A stretch of 44,641 nt of DNA from Chloroflexota bacterium (GTDB lineage Bacteria > Chloroflexota > Dehalococcoidia > UBA2247 > RBG-13-53-26). The notes beneath the pieces are model-generated. The model was given only the letters and a program-made list of their open reading frames with translations. It was not told the DNA's origin and did no database searches. Made by a program: the position numbers and the translations under genes. This document shows positions 11,327 through 40,148 of this stretch, in pieces. The stretch's first letter is position 1, and the number at the start of each line of letters is the position of its first letter. The stretch lies in assembly GCA_026389585.1 (NCBI GenBank), contig JAPLHP010000030.1:1-44641 (forward strand), in the 5' to 3' direction.

Positions 11327-11854
11327 TCACGCCAAGCTTCTTCTCAATTCCTGAAGCCTGGTGCGGACACTTCCATCCAGCAACTTATCCCCCAACCTGA
11401 CCACCAAGCCCCCTATGATTTCAGGATCCACCTTCGCACCAAGCATTACTGTCTTGCCAGTGATCTCAGCCAAGCCCTTCCCAATGATCTCTTCTTCTTG
11501 GTCACCAATGGGGATAGCCGTAACCACTTCTGCCTCAACTACCCCCTTGTGAGCATATGACAAACGTCTGTACTCAGCCACAATGCCCTGGACTATGTGG
11601 AGGCGATTCCTGGCAACCAGGAGATACGCCAGATTCATTGCCGTAGGTGTAACACCCTTGAGAGCCTGCTGCAGTAGCTCTCTTTTTCTTTCTGAACTAA
11701 CCTTGGGATTCTCCAGAAAGGAGCCTATCTCCGGATCGTGCAAAACACTGGCTATACTCTCCAGGTCAGCCTGCCATCTGTCCAATTGATTGGTCTCTAA
11801 GGCAATTAGAAAAACTGCCTGCGCATGCCGTCTGCCTGAAATACCCTTAGCCAT
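11327..11854 (-). CDS. atpH: ATP synthase F1 subunit delta
   Basis: A 175-residue delta subunit linking F1 to the peripheral stalk. The N-terminal helical bundle (RRHAQAVFLIALETNQLDRWQ) and the closing block DPEIIGGLVVRLGDKLLDGSVRTRLQELRRSL are diagnostic. Length is normal. It follows atpF with a four-base gap. The Shine-Dalgarno sequence is weak, which suggests coupled translation from atpF. Confidence 0.95.
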   Translation of the reverse strand: MAKGISGRRHAQAVFLIALETNQLDRWQADLESIASVLHDPEIGSFLENPKVSSERKRELLQQALKGVTPTAMNLAYLLVARNRLHIVQGIVAEYRRLSYAHKGVVEAEVVTAIPIGDQEEEIIGKGLAEITGKTVMLGAKVDPEIIGGLVVRLGDKLLDGSVRTRLQELRRSLA

Positions 11855-11858
11855 TGTT

Positions 11859-12371
11859 CTAGTTCAATTCACTCTTCTTGGAAGCAAGTCCTTCTTTTAA
11901 AACCTTGTCAATTAGCTGCTGGTGCACTTTCTTGTCCAGGGACTGTTCAATTACCTTCTCTGCCGCCAGAACTGCCAGATCGGCAAACTCCCGACGCAGT
12001 TGATTGAAACTTTCTTCTCTCTCCATGGCAATCTCAGCCCTGGCTTTGGCAATGAGAGCCTCTGTTTCTTTCCTGGCCTCAGCCCTGGCCTCTTCCTTGA
12101 GCCTATCTGATGTCTGCGAAGCCTGAGCCATGATGGCCTGGCCCTCTTTGCGTCCAGCCTCAATCTGAGCTTTCACGGTCTCTTCAGCATGAGCCATCTC
12201 CTGTTTGATGCGCTCCGCCTGATCCAGACTCTCCTTTATCTTGCCTGCCCGCTGATCCAGCATCTTCGTGATAGGCTTATACAAGACCAGCGTCAGCAGC
12301 CCAAGCAAGAGAAAGAAGTTTATTATGAAAGCCAACAGACTTGGTAGATTTATTCCAAGGTCATTGAGCAT
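11859..12371 (-). CDS. atpF: ATP synthase Fo subunit b
   Basis: A 170-residue b subunit of the peripheral stalk. One N-terminal membrane helix spans about residues 10-31 (SLLAFIINFFLLLGLLTLVL), followed by KPITKMLDQRAGKI and a long charged coiled coil. The C-terminal block DLAVLAAEKVIEQSLDKKVHQQLIDK is typical. AGAGGAGC precedes the ATG. Only one b-type gene is present, so b is expected to be a homodimer. Confidence 0.95.
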   Translation of the reverse strand: MLNDLGINLPSLLAFIINFFLLLGLLTLVLYKPITKMLDQRAGKIKESLDQAERIKQEMAHAEETVKAQIEAGRKEGQAIMAQASQTSDRLKEEARAEARKETEALIAKARAEIAMEREESFNQLRREFADLAVLAAEKVIEQSLDKKVHQQLIDKVLKEGLASKKSELN

Positions 12372-12570: not shown

Positions 12571-12816
12571 TTATGCTGTTGCTGTTTTGGAGACCATGGC
12601 AATAATGATCGACACGATCAGGGCATAGATACCGATAGCCTCTGTCAACGCCGCTACCAGGATCATGTTGGTCAAGATCGCGCCTCTGGCCTCTGGATTG
12701 CGTCCTAGCGCCGTCACGGTGGCATACCCTATCAGGCCCAATCCTAGTGCCGGACCTAAGAGGCCAATGCTACCTGTGATCGCTACGGCTAGATACTTGG
12801 CTACAACTGGGTCCAT
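12571..12816 (-). CDS. atpE: ATP synthase Fo subunit c (proton type)
   Basis: An 81-residue c subunit with two membrane helices joined by the polar loop RNPEA. The ion-binding carboxylate is the Glu in LTEAIGIYALIV of helix 2. Sodium-binding c subunits usually have Gln in helix 1 and Ser or Thr after the Glu. Here the equivalent places hold Leu and Ala, so proton coupling is predicted. The glycine-rich stretch GPALGLGLIG has one Gly replaced compared with the usual GxGxG pattern. AAGGAGGT lies six bases before the ATG. Confidence 0.96.
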   Translation of the reverse strand: MDPVVAKYLAVAITGSIGLLGPALGLGLIGYATVTALGRNPEARGAILTNMILVAALTEAIGIYALIVSIIIAMVSKTATA

Positions 12817-12844: not shown

Positions 12845-13999
12845 TTACCCATGCTCCTCACTCCCGTGGGAAACAGCTATGCTGGCAAATACCAGAGTCA
12901 GCCCTCCAAAGATAAGGGCCTGAATGAAGCCAATAAGAAGCTCCAGGCCGTAGAAGGGTATGGCCATTACCCAAGGGACGAGGAACGTAGCTGACAAGAC
13001 CAATATCTCCCCTGCCGTCATATTGCCAAAGAGACGGAAGGCGAAGCTGATCATCCGGGTCATATGGCTTATGGCCTCCAGGCCACCGATAACGGCATTG
13101 ATCACACCGGTGACACAGGCCATGATGGCATCAACAATCTTGCCCTTGAATAACAGCTTTATGCCCCGGACAAGCTCTCCCAGATTGACATACTCGGTGA
13201 TATAGTGACGGAATCCCCTGCCAGTCAATCCCCAGAACTCGATGAATAAGACCGCCATGACTGCCAGAGCCAGGGTCATGTTGATATCTGTGCTGGCAGA
13301 GCGGAACAATGGCGGCCGGCTCACAATCTCGGCCACAGGCTCATCAACTGAGATCGATTGACCTTCAGCAACAGCATACTCTACTTCACCAGTCTTAGGG
13401 GCCGTAACATCCTCAGTGGTGGATCCGGTGTTTACTTGAAATACCACGTCTCCTTCATTGACCTTGACCACCGTCTCCCCCTCAGCAGGCACTACAAGCC
13501 CTTCAACCGTCCCAGCTACCGGGGACACAACCTCTTTTGCCTCCTTGACAAAGATACCAGGCCCATAAAAGGGAAGAAGGGCAAGGTAGGCATTGAACAT
13601 CACAAAGATGAAGATAGTAGCAATCACAGGGAAGAACCGGCGACCGTTCTTGTGCCCGGCAACACTCTCTACGAAGTTCAAGAGCATTTCCAGGGCTGTT
13701 TCAAACAGACCCTGCAAACGGCGAGGGATGATCCTCATCTTGCGCGTAGCGGCAAACGAGAGAGCCACAACCACAATAATGGTGATCCAGGAGGCAAGTA
13801 GCGTATTGGAAATCGGCAGAGGGCCAGCTTGGAAGAGTACATCACCACGGAAGAACGAGTGAACTTCAAGTACCGGGACACTGAGAATTTGTGGCAGCAG
13901 CTTAATATTGAGGCCCCTGCCTATGGCACCGCCAGCTAAGCCAAATATGAAAAGGACTACAATTACAAGGCCGATGATAGAGCATCCACGCTTGGACAC
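12845..13999 (-). CDS. atpB: ATP synthase Fo subunit a with an inserted barrel-sandwich domain
   Basis: A 384-residue subunit a, far longer than the usual 220-280. The conserved C-terminal half is intact, with the essential Arg at R322 in FAFRLFGNMTAGEIL and the last helices GLELLIGFIQALIFGGLT. Between LLPFYGPGIF (about 142-150) and SADVN-like RSASTDINMTLAL (about 233-245) lies an insert of about 70 residues. It resembles two halves of a lipoyl/biotinyl-type barrel-sandwich fold: SPVAGTVEGLVV...VNEGDVVFQV and APKTGEVEYAVAEGQSISVD. No modifiable Lys is seen at the usual turn. By the known topology of subunit a this loop faces outside. The start is GTG, overlapping the atpI stop by one base. 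Confidence 0.93.
   Translation of the reverse strand: MSKRGCSIIGLVIVVLFIFGLAGGAIGRGLNIKLLPQILSVPVLEVHSFFRGDVLFQAGPLPISNTLLASWITIIVVVALSFAATRKMRIIPRRLQGLFETALEMLLNFVESVAGHKNGRRFFPVIATIFIFVMFNAYLALLPFYGPGIFVKEAKEVVSPVAGTVEGLVVPAEGETVVKVNEGDVVFQVNTGSTTEDVTAPKTGEVEYAVAEGQSISVDEPVAEIVSRPPLFRSASTDINMTLALAVMAVLFIEFWGLTGRGFRHYITEYVNLGELVRGIKLLFKGKIVDAIMACVTGVINAVIGGLEAISHMTRMISFAFRLFGNMTAGEILVLSATFLVPWVMAIPFYGLELLIGFIQALIFGGLTLVFASIAVSHGSEEHG
13319..13540 (-). other. Region of atpB encoding the extra barrel-sandwich-like domain
   Basis: Codons for about residues 154-227 of subunit a. The two repeated half-motifs (V-x-G-x-V near 161-165 and G-x-V-x-x-A-V-x-E-G near 204-213) each have the spacing of lipoyl, biotinyl or HlyD hairpins. 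Coding frame and base composition continue without a break, so this is not an assembly join. Confidence 0.65.
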
Positions 14000-14232
14000 T
14001 ACTGCTTGTCCTCCCGGCTCTTGTCTTCCTGCTCCTTAATTAGCGGCACTATCATTCTATAGGTTCCAAAGGCAGCCACCACCAACCCAAGAAAGAGTCC
14101 AACCAAAGTAAATATTATCGAATACCCAAACTTCCTGTCAAGCCAAAGCCCACCGAGGATCCCGCCGACAATCGATATACCGATATACCATCCAATACCG
14201 ATGAACTTAGCCGCAAGGCCCCAATTTTCCAT
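13999..14232 (-). CDS. atpI: AtpI/AtpZ-family ATP synthase accessory protein
   Basis: A 77-residue protein with two membrane helices (about residues 8-31 and 37-58), separated by GLWLDRKFGYSIIFTLVG and closed by a charged tail EDKSREDKQ. The G-x-x-L-D-x-x-x-G-x-x-x-x-x-T-x-x-G core matches the AtpZ/AtpI family, membrane proteins at the head of many atp operons that help c-ring assembly or ion supply. It is the first gene of the operon, and its stop overlaps the GTG start of atpB. AtpZ rather than classical AtpI is possible given the short length. Confidence 0.85.
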   Translation of the reverse strand: MENWGLAAKFIGIGWYIGISIVGGILGGLWLDRKFGYSIIFTLVGLFLGLVVAAFGTYRMIVPLIKEQEDKSREDKQ

Positions 14233-26503: not shown

Positions 26504-27694
26504 TTAGCTACTTAGTTTTTGCATTACTAGTATTCTTTCGTACTTGGTCGTCCGCGTCTGCCGCCTTGAGCGCCGTATGTCGGGGATCTCATCAGTATAA
26601 ATGAGCTTCTGCACCAGACGCCCATCGCTGACCTCGTGAGCTAGTTCAGAAATGATCTGAGCCGTAGGTTTCTTCACACCGTTCCGCTCAACGTCACCAA
26701 GGACAAGCACACAGTAGGCCTCGTCTTTGAGAACTCTGTCCATTTGCCTCAAGCACTGCTTCATCTGTGTTATGTATACATGGTCGTTAGCTGTTAAAGA
26801 ACGATCCAATCCTTTCCAATCGGGAACGCCAAGAAACCACAGCCTGAGCCTATTATCTCTTGCATAGTCCAGGGCACCGAAATATGGTGGGCTTGAGATA
26901 ATAGCATCAATAGAATTTGAGGGTAGTGACAAATTCATCGTGTTCTCTTGTAATACCTGCCAAGTCGTTTGGTTTCTTGACTGCGTAAAGCCAGTTCGAC
27001 GATAGGCTCGTGTTACCTTGGCGATAAGTCTGGAGCGGAGGTCACGGTATGAGTACATCTCAGGGAACTCTTCAGGAGGGTACTTTTTTAGGCGCAGATA
27101 AGGAGTCAAGTGACTAGCAGGATAAGAAAGGAACCCTGGGCGCACGTGGTGTAATATACCCAAGAGGCAAGCCATAAGGAAGTAGTTCTGCCTTTCCTCA
27201 AGTACCTGGAAGGCAGTAACAATCTCCTTGAGTGTGTCAGGGTGGAAGAACTTACGAACCCAGTCGGGCACATTATCAACACTAGCAGTGTGAACACGGG
27301 ACTCGATTTCTCGTAGGGCTTCCTCTGCTTCGTGCAAAGCCTCTTGCTTACTGAACGGTGCAGATAGTTTTCCTCTCGTAATAACATAGGCATATGGGCT
27401 GAGGTCGTTGGCTACTGCAGGACGATCCATAATGACGCATTCCAGTGGCACCACTCCGGCACCGCAGAAAGGATCCAGAACAACATCACCTGATCGGGAA
27501 TACAGCTCAATAAGCACACGAACCATCCCTGACTTCAACTTCCCAACATAGGGGGCCAACTGATGCATTGAGCTTTCCCTGGCATTGAATGATCCAGACC
27601 AAAGTTGTGCATCTAGCTCAATGTGCTCTTCATGAAACAAGCGCGGTTGTTCAGCTTGCAGCGCTTCCACATTTATCTCCGTGGCTTTCTCCAT
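26504..27694 (-). CDS. DNA methyltransferase (N4-cytosine/N6-adenine) of a type II system
   Basis: A 396-residue amino-methyltransferase. The S-adenosylmethionine loop DPFCGAG is at 74-80, an acidic motif II lies in ANDLSPYAY, and the catalytic motif IV is SSPPYFG at 267-273. Motif I precedes motif IV, and the long segment between them (about 100-260) may hold target recognition. SSPPY suggests N4-cytosine or N6-adenine methylation. The first 22 bases overlap the end of the endonuclease gene, a close coupling usual in restriction-modification pairs. The target sequence cannot be predicted. Confidence 0.88.
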   Translation of the reverse strand: MEKATEINVEALQAEQPRLFHEEHIELDAQLWSGSFNARESSMHQLAPYVGKLKSGMVRVLIELYSRSGDVVLDPFCGAGVVPLECVIMDRPAVANDLSPYAYVITRGKLSAPFSKQEALHEAEEALREIESRVHTASVDNVPDWVRKFFHPDTLKEIVTAFQVLEERQNYFLMACLLGILHHVRPGFLSYPASHLTPYLRLKKYPPEEFPEMYSYRDLRSRLIAKVTRAYRRTGFTQSRNQTTWQVLQENTMNLSLPSNSIDAIISSPPYFGALDYARDNRLRLWFLGVPDWKGLDRSLTANDHVYITQMKQCLRQMDRVLKDEAYCVLVLGDVERNGVKKPTAQIISELAHEVSDGRLVQKLIYTDEIPDIRRSRRQTRTTKYERILVMQKLSS

Positions 27695-34241: not shown

Positions 34242-34696
34242 TTCTAGCCATCACCATGCCTACCTTGGGCCAATGCCCCATGTACGATACCACCTCTTTA
34301 TCATTTTATCAAAAAAGATAAAGAGCAGTGCTGCAAAGGACATGTACTGAACGATCAGCCAGATTGTAGAAGACCAACTAGATAAATCCCTGTTGTAACC
34401 TATCAACTACAATCGAACAGTGCCAAGGCACACGTAAGATTGACAGGTTGCCGCCTATAAGGCTACGCTGTATTGGCCCTGACTGCCAATGCAGATGCTA
34501 GAGCCTTTATCTAGGAGGGTGGGTCACCACTCGGACAACGCGGATAAGTTAGGCACAAAACAACCGTTCGCTTGCGCCCAGCCCAGCTTTGGGCAAATAG
34601 TCGTGACCCAGGCTCCTAGGCCAAGATGTTAGCACTGCCCTTGCAAGAGTCGCGGCAGGTATAGCAAACGACTTCATAAAAAACAGGAGGTTGCCC
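34242..34696. other. Gap holding an AT-rich hairpin
   Basis: No gene is supported. CTCTTTATC (34294-34302) and GATAAAGAG (34317-34325) form a perfect nine-pair inverted repeat around a 14-base loop that includes AAAAAA. It may end transcription coming from either side. The right end holds the ribosome binding site AGGAGG (34685-34690) of the HerA-like gene. Confidence 0.4.
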
Positions 34697-36823
34697 ATGA
34701 CATCCAGTTTATCGGAAGTGGAATGTTTCAAGGAGACGCTGAAAAAGTACGGCCTAACCGATTCGGCTGATGTGCTCTTGAAGGCAATCAGAGCATCTTA
34801 CCTTAGCGCCGGACGTTTAGCCCCGGAAGTGGCATCACGGCAAATAGAGGTCCTCCAGCAGCTAGGGGTGGGCTGGCCGACTCTAAGTGAGCGCGGCAAG
34901 GTAATCGGACGAGAGCTTGTTGACATTGACCTTAAGGCTTCAGAGGAGGTCCTGAACGAAATTGTGTCGCGATATCCCCCAGCGATAGTGGGACTCTTCC
35001 TAAGAGCCGCATCCCAGGGTGCGGATGTCTATTCTTTGAGAGTGCCGGAAGACGCATACGACTTCGACGGCGTCACCTCCATTTCATCATCGACCGACTT
35101 GATTGGTCACCGGAGGATCCTTCCCCACATTACTCACTTGGGAAGCGATCTTGCACAGCAGCAGTTAGCCATCGAGTATAAAGACCGCGCATACAAAGGG
35201 GCAAAATGGGTGGCGGTGTTCATCTACCTGACCGCTGATGCAGCAGAAAAGCTCAGAGGGCTTGTCGGGGTCAATATGACTTTCCTAGATGAGGTGGAGG
35301 ACGCCATCCAGAATTTCAACCTACTGGGTCGATCTCCCGTACCCACCCTAGCAGAGTTCGAGAGGAACGGCGTGTCCAGGGAAATGCTGGAAGGTTCTGT
35401 CAAAGAGGCTATCAAAGAGGGGATCGTGACCAAGGTGGTAAACGACGGACCGGCATTCTTGGTGATTGACCGAGACCGGTACAAGGCCGTAGTGTTTCGG
35501 CCTCTTCTTGACCAAATTATAGAAATGCTGCTGCGACAGGGCTCCATTCCTGAGAAGAATCCCTGGCCCGTTGTGCCGAAGAAGCAGTTGAGCTCCGCCT
35601 CTCCCGATAGCAAAGGAGAGATAATTCTGGGGGTCACTGAGCGCGCAATGGAGCAGGGCCTATTGGGGTGGGTAGATAAGCGTCGAGTGCTGCTAAGTCT
35701 AAGCATCGGCCTAGACGAGGAAACTGGAGAGGAAAAATCTCAGACCATAAGCGTTTTTGGCGTTCAGGGCAGTGGTAAGAGCTATACCACTGGCGTCATT
35801 CTGGAGATGGGCGTCATGTCGATTCCGAACATTAACCAACTAACAGAGCCCCTTGCTGCTGTTGTATTCCACTACAGCAAGGATGAAGGTTACCCCCCAG
35901 AGTATCTGGGACTTCGGTCGCCTAACAGAATACAGAAGGATTTGCACTCACTCAAGGAGGCCATAGGTGCCATGCCCCAAGCAGTGGAGAAAGTCATCTG
36001 CTTGGTGCCAACTTCACGGTTAGAGGAGCGCCGCAGAGAACTCCCAGGTATAGATGTGCATCCGTTGTTATTCAATCCTAATGAGCTAAGCACCGATGAT
36101 TGGCAGCTTCTGATGGGTGTGCCTGGTAGTGACACCTTGTACATGGAGTACGTCAAGGCTATCCTGCAAGACTTGAAGCCCCCAATTGGTGTTGAGAGCA
36201 TTTGGGACACCGTTGAGCGGTCGGAAATGTCATCTGGCCAGAAGCGGCTGGTGGCCCTCCGCCTCGAGCTGGCCCAACGCTATCTCCATGAAGGGGTATC
36301 CTGGAACGACTACGCTCAGCCCGGCCTCCTAACCATACTAGACATCCGAGATAAGATGATCGATGAGCTTGCGGCGATGCGCCTTTGCCTAGTCTCCCTG
36401 CGCCGTTTTCAGAATCTTAGACTCCGGGGCCAAAGCATTCCGAAGCTTGTTGTATTAGATGAGGCACACAAATACCTTCACACCGACTTCGCGCAAGAGG
36501 TCGAAACCTTGGTACGAGAGATGCGCCATAAAGCAACCGCTCTAGTAATTGCCTCACAAGACCCGCTGTCGATACCTGACAAAGTTATCGGCCTGTCCTC
36601 TATCGTCATCTTGCATCGTATGACATCCCCGGACTGGCTCCGGCACATAAAGCGCGGATGCGCTGCCGTCGCCAACTTGAAGCCCTCGGACGTCAGCTCA
36701 CTTGGGAACGGAGAGGCTTACGTCTGGGCCAAGGAGGCCACGGATCGACGCTTTACAGAGGGGTGTGTGAAGACGCACATCCGCCCTCGGGTAACCCAAC
36801 ATGGGTTTCATTCAATACATTGA
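34697..36823 (+). CDS. HerA/FtsK-superfamily ATPase
   Basis: A 708-residue protein. The ATG at 34697 has AGGAGG six bases upstream and is chosen over the in-frame TTG at 34691. The N-terminal part (1-70) looks like a small helical or winged-helix region. The ATPase starts with Walker A GVQGSGKSYT near 355-364 and has Walker B KLVVLDEAHKYL near 583-594. The sensor-like strand ALVIASQDP follows, and near the C-terminus LGNGEAYVWAKEATDRRF resembles the closing hairpin of HerA proteins. HerA-type ATPases form hexameric DNA pumps and occur in defence systems with a nuclease partner; no NurA, SIR2 or DUF4297 gene is seen beside it. The next gene encodes a coiled-coil protein. Confidence 0.82.
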   Translation: MTSSLSEVECFKETLKKYGLTDSADVLLKAIRASYLSAGRLAPEVASRQIEVLQQLGVGWPTLSERGKVIGRELVDIDLKASEEVLNEIVSRYPPAIVGLFLRAASQGADVYSLRVPEDAYDFDGVTSISSSTDLIGHRRILPHITHLGSDLAQQQLAIEYKDRAYKGAKWVAVFIYLTADAAEKLRGLVGVNMTFLDEVEDAIQNFNLLGRSPVPTLAEFERNGVSREMLEGSVKEAIKEGIVTKVVNDGPAFLVIDRDRYKAVVFRPLLDQIIEMLLRQGSIPEKNPWPVVPKKQLSSASPDSKGEIILGVTERAMEQGLLGWVDKRRVLLSLSIGLDEETGEEKSQTISVFGVQGSGKSYTTGVILEMGVMSIPNINQLTEPLAAVVFHYSKDEGYPPEYLGLRSPNRIQKDLHSLKEAIGAMPQAVEKVICLVPTSRLEERRRELPGIDVHPLLFNPNELSTDDWQLLMGVPGSDTLYMEYVKAILQDLKPPIGVESIWDTVERSEMSSGQKRLVALRLELAQRYLHEGVSWNDYAQPGLLTILDIRDKMIDELAAMRLCLVSLRRFQNLRLRGQSIPKLVVLDEAHKYLHTDFAQEVETLVREMRHKATALVIASQDPLSIPDKVIGLSSIVILHRMTSPDWLRHIKRGCAAVANLKPSDVSSLGNGEAYVWAKEATDRRFTEGCVKTHIRPRVTQHGFHSIH

Positions 36824-38214: not shown

Positions 38215-40148
38215 TAGCCCATGTTTGACAAGAGGGGTTAAGGGTAGCTTCAAGAAAGGGGCTTTGGGGGCATGTCTGTCACTACAAAGGCCTTTTTGAC
38301 CTCTTGTTTGGTCTTATGGGAGAGAAAGGGAGGTTATCCCCATGGCCCCCAGCACTTCGCGGGCCCGGTGGCTACCGGAGGTCACTCCCCGCTTCACCTC
38401 TGACCCCACCCCCATCTCTACCACGCTTATGGTGCGCAAGGCTTCGAATGCCGCTTCTCCCGATAGCTTGCTGCCGTGAGCCTTCAGCTTCTTCTCCAGG
38501 GCACGTTTGAGGAGAAGGGCCAGCGCCGCGACGAATATGTGCCCCTGTACACGCGCAGCGGTGTGATGGTAGATCGGCCGCATCCGGATGACATCCTTCA
38601 GACTCCGAAAGGCCCTCTCCACCTCGCTGAGACTCTTGTAGGCTGCTACTGCCTCTACTGCCGTTATGCCCTTTTCCTCTGTTTGGATAAGATACTTCCC
38701 CTCATACGCCTTCTCCCGCTCCAGGTTCGCCTGCTCAAAGTAGTGGAATTCCCCTTCCTTCAGCTCCCATCCGTAGTAGCGATGACCGCGGTGCCTTAAG
38801 AGTATCCGGCTGGCTGCAGCTCCAATCTTCTCCGGCGACTTGATCTGTCCCTTGCTTACCCTCGCCCTCAGACCCTCAAGCTCTACTCGGGTCCTTTCCA
38901 TGGCCTTCTCCCGCATCGCCCTCTCATATGCCAGCCGCTCCTCCGACTCCACTACAAAGACACGTACGCCCCTCTCATCACCGGCCACCTCTTGTACCAG
39001 AGTCTTCCCTTCCCCGGGACACTCTTGCCATGACCCTGTCGCCTTCTGTATGAGCTCATAAATGCCCTCACGCCTCCTCCGCTTCAGTCCCACCAGATAG
39101 CCCTGCTGCCGATCCCGAAGCATGGTCAGATTGTCCGAGGTCACCATCCCCCGGTCCCCGACAAAGACCACGCGCTTGAGCCCAAAGCGCCTCTGTAGAT
39201 CATCTATGACGCCGGCTACTGTCTTGGAGTCGTTCAAGTTGCCGGGAAAGACATGATGGGCTATAGGCCACCCGTTTATCATGACCACACCCACCTCCAC
39301 CTGCCGGTTCTTGCCCCTACCATCGCGGCTATACCCATACCGCCCCAGTTCCTGTGGTCCCTCTCCTTCAAAATAGGTGGAGGTGAGATCATAGAATACC
39401 AGCTCCACCTCCAGGGCAAACAGGTCACGCAACCTGAAGAAAAGCTCCTGCTCTATCCGCTCCTTGTTCTCCACCAGTTCATTCAGCGTGCGGTACCAGC
39501 GCTGTAGCCAGCTCAGGTTCACCTGCACTCTATCGTGCTCTTCCCACGCCGGTAACCACCTTTGGCCATGCCGGTCACAGACATAGTCCGTTTCCAGCCA
39601 CGAGGCCAGGTGATGTTCACTCCCTGGAGAGCAAAGACGATTGGCTGCCAGTACGAAAGCCCTCTCTGCCAGGGAGTTGTCTCTTTCCCTCTGACCTCCG
39701 ATGCCGTCCAGGATACCCTCCAGCCCAAACTCTTGCCACAGGTGTCTCATGACCATGACAGGCCCATAGCAGGCCGACTGTGTGGGAATCACCTGGCTCG
39801 ACTTCACCCAGCTATCCGGGATGTCTCCCTTCTGAAGGAGACGCACCAGACTATCGAGATGGGCACAAAGCAGGTCCCTGCGGCCAAGGTTGACGACTAC
39901 CTTCTGCTTGTTGACGCCGTTCTCCCGGTACGACTCCACCAGGCGAAGGTATTCGTGCTTCTCGCCCTTCTTGCCACGGGCCTTAACGGATCTGAGAAAC
40001 ATGGCTGTCACTGCTGACTATAGCAGACCACAGCCAGCATGTCAAGCCAATGCTGTCACTACGCGTCAAAAACCGCCAGGCGTCAGATCCAACCCTCCCA
40101 AAGCTAAACCTCCCCCAATAACAATGTCAATTTGTCAAACATGGGCTA
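38215..40148 (-). mobile_element. IS1634-family insertion sequence, complete
   Basis: The ends are perfect 17-base terminal inverted repeats: TAGCCCATGTTTGACAA at 38215-38231 and its complement at 40132-40148. They enclose one intact transposase gene. The length is 1934 bases. No short target duplication is seen directly outside the ends; IS1634-family elements are known for long and variable duplications, so this is not decisive. The right end interrupts an ISAzo13-type transposase remnant. Confidence 0.88.
38314..40002 (-). CDS. IS1634-family DDE transposase
   Basis: A 562-residue transposase from the ATG at 40002 (MFLRSVKARGKKGEKHEYLRL in the frame, the family's usual opening); a GTG three codons earlier is less likely. 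The DDE core is visible with VELVFYDLTSTYFEGEG for the first Asp, VVFVGDRGMVTSDNL for the second, and the C-terminal block SEVERAFRSLKDVIRMRPIYH for the Glu region. The gene has no frameshift and is probably functional. Confidence 0.92.
   Translation of the reverse strand: MFLRSVKARGKKGEKHEYLRLVESYRENGVNKQKVVVNLGRRDLLCAHLDSLVRLLQKGDIPDSWVKSSQVIPTQSACYGPVMVMRHLWQEFGLEGILDGIGGQRERDNSLAERAFVLAANRLCSPGSEHHLASWLETDYVCDRHGQRWLPAWEEHDRVQVNLSWLQRWYRTLNELVENKERIEQELFFRLRDLFALEVELVFYDLTSTYFEGEGPQELGRYGYSRDGRGKNRQVEVGVVMINGWPIAHHVFPGNLNDSKTVAGVIDDLQRRFGLKRVVFVGDRGMVTSDNLTMLRDRQQGYLVGLKRRRREGIYELIQKATGSWQECPGEGKTLVQEVAGDERGVRVFVVESEERLAYERAMREKAMERTRVELEGLRARVSKGQIKSPEKIGAAASRILLRHRGHRYYGWELKEGEFHYFEQANLEREKAYEGKYLIQTEEKGITAVEAVAAYKSLSEVERAFRSLKDVIRMRPIYHHTAARVQGHIFVAALALLLKRALEKKLKAHGSKLSGEAAFEALRTISVVEMGVGSEVKRGVTSGSHRAREVLGAMGITSLSLP

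Follow-up and report, generated by a model that had tools for sequence, protein, structure and literature searches.

A predicted barrel-sandwich domain in the outward loop of F-type ATP synthase subunit a from one Dehalococcoidia family

The atp operon and its subunit a gene

On the minus strand of the window (the whole 44,641-nucleotide stretch of Chloroflexota DNA analysed here) lies an F1Fo cluster of normal make-up, comprising an AtpI-like gene, atpB, atpE, atpF, atpH, atpA and atpG. The features drawn on below are:

13999..14232, minus strand: AtpI-like gene (PF09527), overlapping the start of atpB
12845..13999, minus strand: atpB, F-type ATP synthase subunit a; 384 aa, GTG start; PF00119
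13295..13567, minus strand: expanded H3–H4 loop of subunit a, residues 145–235 (91 aa); limits taken from alignment, the family insert profile matching these exact bases at 114.4 bits
13319..13543, minus strand: predicted barrel-sandwich (biotinyl/lipoyl-like) domain lacking a carrier lysine, strands within residues 153–227; supported by model confidence, PF00364 and PDB matches
13034..13036, minus strand: codon of the essential arginine R322 of atpB, in the motif RLFGNMTAGE
12571..12816, minus strand: atpE, subunit c (PF00137)
11859..12371, minus strand: atpF, subunit b (PF00430)
11327..11854, minus strand: atpH, subunit delta (PF00213)

The product of atpB is a true and intact F-type subunit a. 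It scores 121.4 bits against PF00119 (cut-off 33.9), is encoded within an atp operon alongside the genes for subunits c and b, and is the sole PF00119 match in a search of the assembly, which returned no second atpB. The essential arginine lies within SFAFRLFGNMTAGE and is invariant in a class alignment of 84 sequences, with the RLFGN motif present in the window protein; the view taken in the preliminary description, that R322 and the rest of Fo are intact, is thus upheld, with the genes for subunits c, b and delta following on from atpB. The same description gave the length correctly as 384 residues but overstated the excess: in place of ‘about 100 more than usual’, comparison with short-loop families of the same clade (loops of 15–40 aa) puts the figure nearer to 50–75 aa.

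A Gly-Cys pair at residue 6 (window 13982–13984) precedes an extra N-terminal hydrophobic helix of the protein; it is kept in 9/9 members of the window's family and found in 22 of the 82 class members examined. Elsewhere in the window, open reading frames read by eye between about 24250 and 40011 include a HerA-like ATPase (34691–36823), a DNA-methyltransferase-like gene (26504–27694) and a transposase-like gene (38314–40011), and this region is possibly a mobile or defence island.

Fold and position of the insert

In subunit a, the H3–H4 loop is exposed on the outer side of the membrane, and the mouth of the outer half-channel is near the end of H3. The additional residues of the window protein lie in this loop; an insert had been proposed at residues 154–227 (13540–13319) in an outward-facing loop, and we see that this range maps exactly, with the H3–H4 position borne out by an alignment of relatives. 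In an AlphaFold2 model of the full subunit, calculated with 44 homologues (mean pLDDT 81, pTM 0.67), residues 153–227 form seven strands with a pLDDT of 89–96 per ten-residue block—the highest confidence found anywhere in the model—such that the predicted structure lends no support to disorder of the insert and agrees with the barrel-sandwich fold originally put forward. When the insert is predicted in isolation the strands are unchanged but confidence falls (mean pLDDT 76.5).

Profile and structural searches converge on the same fold. The Pfam Biotin_lipoyl family (PF00364) matches residues of about 151–230, scoring 24.7 bits on the full window protein, above the 22.1 cut-off; the insert searched by itself gives E 2.8e-7, and some other family members score below the cut-off. 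Foldseek, run with the insert against the PDB, returned mostly biotin carrier domains as its top matches (best E 3.1e-5); in a second structural aligner the insert superposed on 5gua with Z 11.4, rmsd 1.4 over 70 residues, and the full subunit a model with Z 11.8, rmsd 1.3 over 69 residues, both values exceeding the Z of 7–8 given as usual for models that lack a clear match. The biotin carboxyl carrier domains as a group (5gua, 1bdo and the transcarboxylase 1.3S subunit, 1dcz) share the fold of the insert at Z 11.4–11.8 and rmsd 1.3–1.4 over about 70 residues, 1dcz also being matched at the profile level (E 1e-6). A chance motif is ruled out by shuffling: a profile built without the window sequence awards the window insert 95.6 bits, as compared to 10.8 for the best of 1000 shuffles and 6.6 for the best loop from another family. 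Likewise, an artefact produced by a frameshift or chimeric contig is ruled out by nine independent genomes, each with the domain in an uninterrupted reading frame. Taking the model and searches together, we regard it as almost certain that the outward H3–H4 loop of the window subunit a contains a barrel-sandwich fold, in both identity and placement.

Amongst the eleven copies of the domain found in the family, the two half-motif glycines, G163 (GTV) and G204 (GEV), are invariant, as anticipated from the half-motifs noted earlier near positions 163 and 204; T164, P201 and G213 are nearly so. Hydrophobic residues occupy some 15 columns in every copy, and the remaining columns vary and are rich in Asp/Glu. 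The copies vary freely outside of the core and turns, with no conserved surface patch evident, and the kept feature of the insert is the fold itself (its hydrophobic core and turn glycines) and not any particular surface.

As the nearest solved relatives by both profile and fold are biotin carrier domains, and the PF00364 score exceeds its cut-off, a functional biotin or lipoate carrier linked to the ATP synthase has to be considered. The exposed hairpin, however, has no modifiable lysine: the window reads 191-TGST-194 and columns 192–194 are free of lysine in all 11 copies, extending to the whole family the absence already remarked upon for the window, with non-lysine residues standing opposite the biotin-carrying AMKM motif of transcarboxylase 1.3S in the aligned copies. 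Furthermore, the H3–H4 loop lies outside the membrane, distant from the cytoplasmic ligases, which counts against such a carrier. Biotin carboxyl carrier domains sit within a carboxylase; the insert instead belongs to a membrane-embedded motor subunit and is placed outside the cell membrane, its gene being atpB and not one for a carboxylase, a decarboxylase or a 2-oxoacid dehydrogenase. At the level of sequence the missing lysine rules out a cofactor carrier, a highly improbable reading overall: fold and profile score are those of a biotinyl/lipoyl domain, yet the residue that defines a swinging-arm carrier is absent. The insert may nonetheless descend from such a domain.

For the membrane part of the window protein, the best structural match is subunit a of Chloroflexus aurantiacus (PDB 9itj series; Z 17.4 over 232 residues, 33% identity). 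This protein has a loop of its own at the same place, also longer than the 15–40 aa of short-loop families, the sequence of which is without the barrel-sandwich motif; the listed chains have coordinates for only 222–266 of its 312 residues.

Distribution, origin and selection

We extracted the stretch linking H3 to H4 from 100 relatives. In each of the nine atpB-bearing members of the window's family, which span six genera, this loop is 82–164 aa long; two other families of the same order with an F-type atpB have loops of 16 and 19 aa, and loops in related short-loop families run to 15–40 aa. In two further families of the order atpB was not found. Three sampled genomes from two sister families in the order (G011, G013 and G014), two of which are at least 90% complete, show no F-type subunit a.

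Searched against 393 genomes of the class, the family insert profile gave eleven matches in nine atpB genes, at 88–116 bits, the next best match scoring 38.8 bits; those of the weaker matches (≤38.8 bits) compared by coordinates fall outside atpB. The presence of the domain in a clade of relatives is borne out, with 9/9 family members that have atpB carrying it, each in a separate genome. At these thresholds no atpB beyond the family was found to contain the insert in the 393 class genomes, a search that a barrel-sandwich of unlike sequence could escape. Across 400 genomes of the phylum, with no other family member amongst the matches, the window atpB alone stands out. When 84 class members were scanned with Pfam, 6 had Biotin_lipoyl, and no further domain was frequent among the H3–H4 loops. 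In the literature and structures searched, with many subscription papers falling outside that search, we found no report of an ATP synthase subunit a with a barrel-sandwich domain.

Two family members (L084 and L086) have a 164-aa loop containing a tandem pair of barrel-sandwich copies, scoring 88–91 and 111–112 bits, with only about 42% identity between the copies inside one protein. In one other Dehalococcoidia genus (L065, L066, L067 and L069) the loop at the same place in atpB reaches 239–250 aa and is unrelated, strongly acidic and contains two cysteines; no Pfam family matched the loop of L065. The long loops of many families in the class have a ‘TIG...LALL.PG’ pattern in common.

In a tree of the subunit core calculated without the insert (built by a fast method, with SH-aLRT values as the sole support measure and no inferred root), the family occupies one side of one branch (100), inside a clade of 35 rows (98) in which all other members have loops of 15–40 aa. 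Because the family forms one clade inside a larger short-loop clade, one independent gain from a short loop, in the ancestor of this single Dehalococcoidia family, is the most likely history on the sequences sampled. No donor of the domain was found, the window's own genome having no second match to the insert profile, and at 20–30% identity the sequences do not resolve ancestry among biotinyl-like domains. Across the same tree, which covers the atpB of 83 class members, loop length separates short-loop from long-loop groups with only four changes.

Other family members are 67–78% identical to the window protein across the core and 29–52% across the inner part of the insert, which has diverged 2–3 times faster. 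For the two closest pairs, the insert has dN/dS values of 0.115 and 0.142 (both with insert dS >1, near saturation) and the core 0.034 and 0.069; on these ratios the insert is under purifying selection, and is constrained less than the core. This bears upon the possibility that the domain is a near-neutral decoration, with an outward loop that tolerates insertions and a domain kept only since misfolding would harm the motor. Its rapid divergence and changes in length are in keeping with that idea, as is the fact that the same loop is long, with unrelated sequence and up to 250 aa, in many other families of the class; against it, the fold is intact across the six genera, the insert is under purifying selection, and in two species the domain has been duplicated and not lost. 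On balance we think near-neutrality unlikely.

A putative cap at the proton inlet

Our preferred reading, to which we would give a probability of roughly 0.4, is that the insert acts as a static, acidic, outward cap or vestibule beside the proton inlet, shielding of the inlet, partner binding and anchoring having been the roles raised in the preliminary description. The domain starts directly after the invariant proline P143 at the end of H3, a position that would place it near the mouth of the outer proton half-channel. There, such a cap may limit access to the inlet, its acidic character may hold the local charge negative, and it may brace or stiffen the stator. In Pseudomonas, a water chain connects the periplasm with the end of this helix, at the counterpart of E. 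coli aD119 (PMC12796488); by reading of the motif, the corresponding residue of the window protein would fall just ahead of the start of the insert.

Precedent for an effect on proton entry comes from Acinetobacter baumannii, in which a likewise lineage-specific, periplasmic-side insertion in subunit a alters the proton entrance (PMC8849298), albeit a small N-terminal one that shifts a mini-helix and is not a folded domain of the H3–H4 loop. Also consistent with a cap are the universal presence of the insert in the family's nine atpB genes, under purifying selection and with core and turn glycines kept, and the variable acidic surface that all nine have in common (net loop charge of −5 to −27). 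Saying this, charge is weak evidence, since acidic surfaces are common and the long loops of other families are acidic too; the faster divergence of the insert would also fit a weak function; and a cap cannot be generally needed, because many lineages function with short loops.

A domain that folds on its own outside the membrane might alternatively serve to dock or anchor, binding an envelope component (a wall polymer, the S-layer, a respiratory complex or another copy of subunit a within the complex) and thereby holding the ATP synthase in place. The barrel-sandwich domains of the membrane-fusion proteins HlyD and MacA are, like the insert, without a cofactor lysine. They also share its fold and its location outside the membrane (5c22 and 3fpp, Z 9.5–10.0), a match that favours anchoring, as does the weak similarity of the insert to envelope barrel-sandwich and M23 models. 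In contrast to these proteins, the insert does not belong to any efflux or secretion protein, and it lacks the HlyD/AcrA-type coiled-coil hairpin between its half-motifs, the predicted structure having no helix at residues 153–227. Contacts between two copies of subunit a are conceivable given that the Chloroflexus structures have two such chains per entry (36 in 18 entries; chains T and Z). The lack of a conserved surface patch amongst the 11 copies argues weakly against a conserved partner interface, however, and neither the window nor a related locus (L102) has an additional gene beside atpB, whilst loop length and copy number vary between species. Anchoring is thus possible, but in our judgement rather unlikely.

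More broadly, the H3–H4 loop of subunit a could be a domain-insertion port of Fo that Dehalococcoidia lineages have filled with different folded modules, the barrel-sandwich (single or tandem) acting at the outer proton entrance and setting proton uptake from outside; we hold this broader proposal to be doubtful.

ATP synthase is close to universal, and few of its parts are as conserved as subunit a; to our knowledge, the outer face of Fo carries little in the motors that have been studied well. A folded domain next to the inlet, which selection retains and some species have duplicated, would amount to a natural experiment on how inlet access affects the motor, and annotation of subunit a by its core profile alone misses such lineage-specific variants of Fo.
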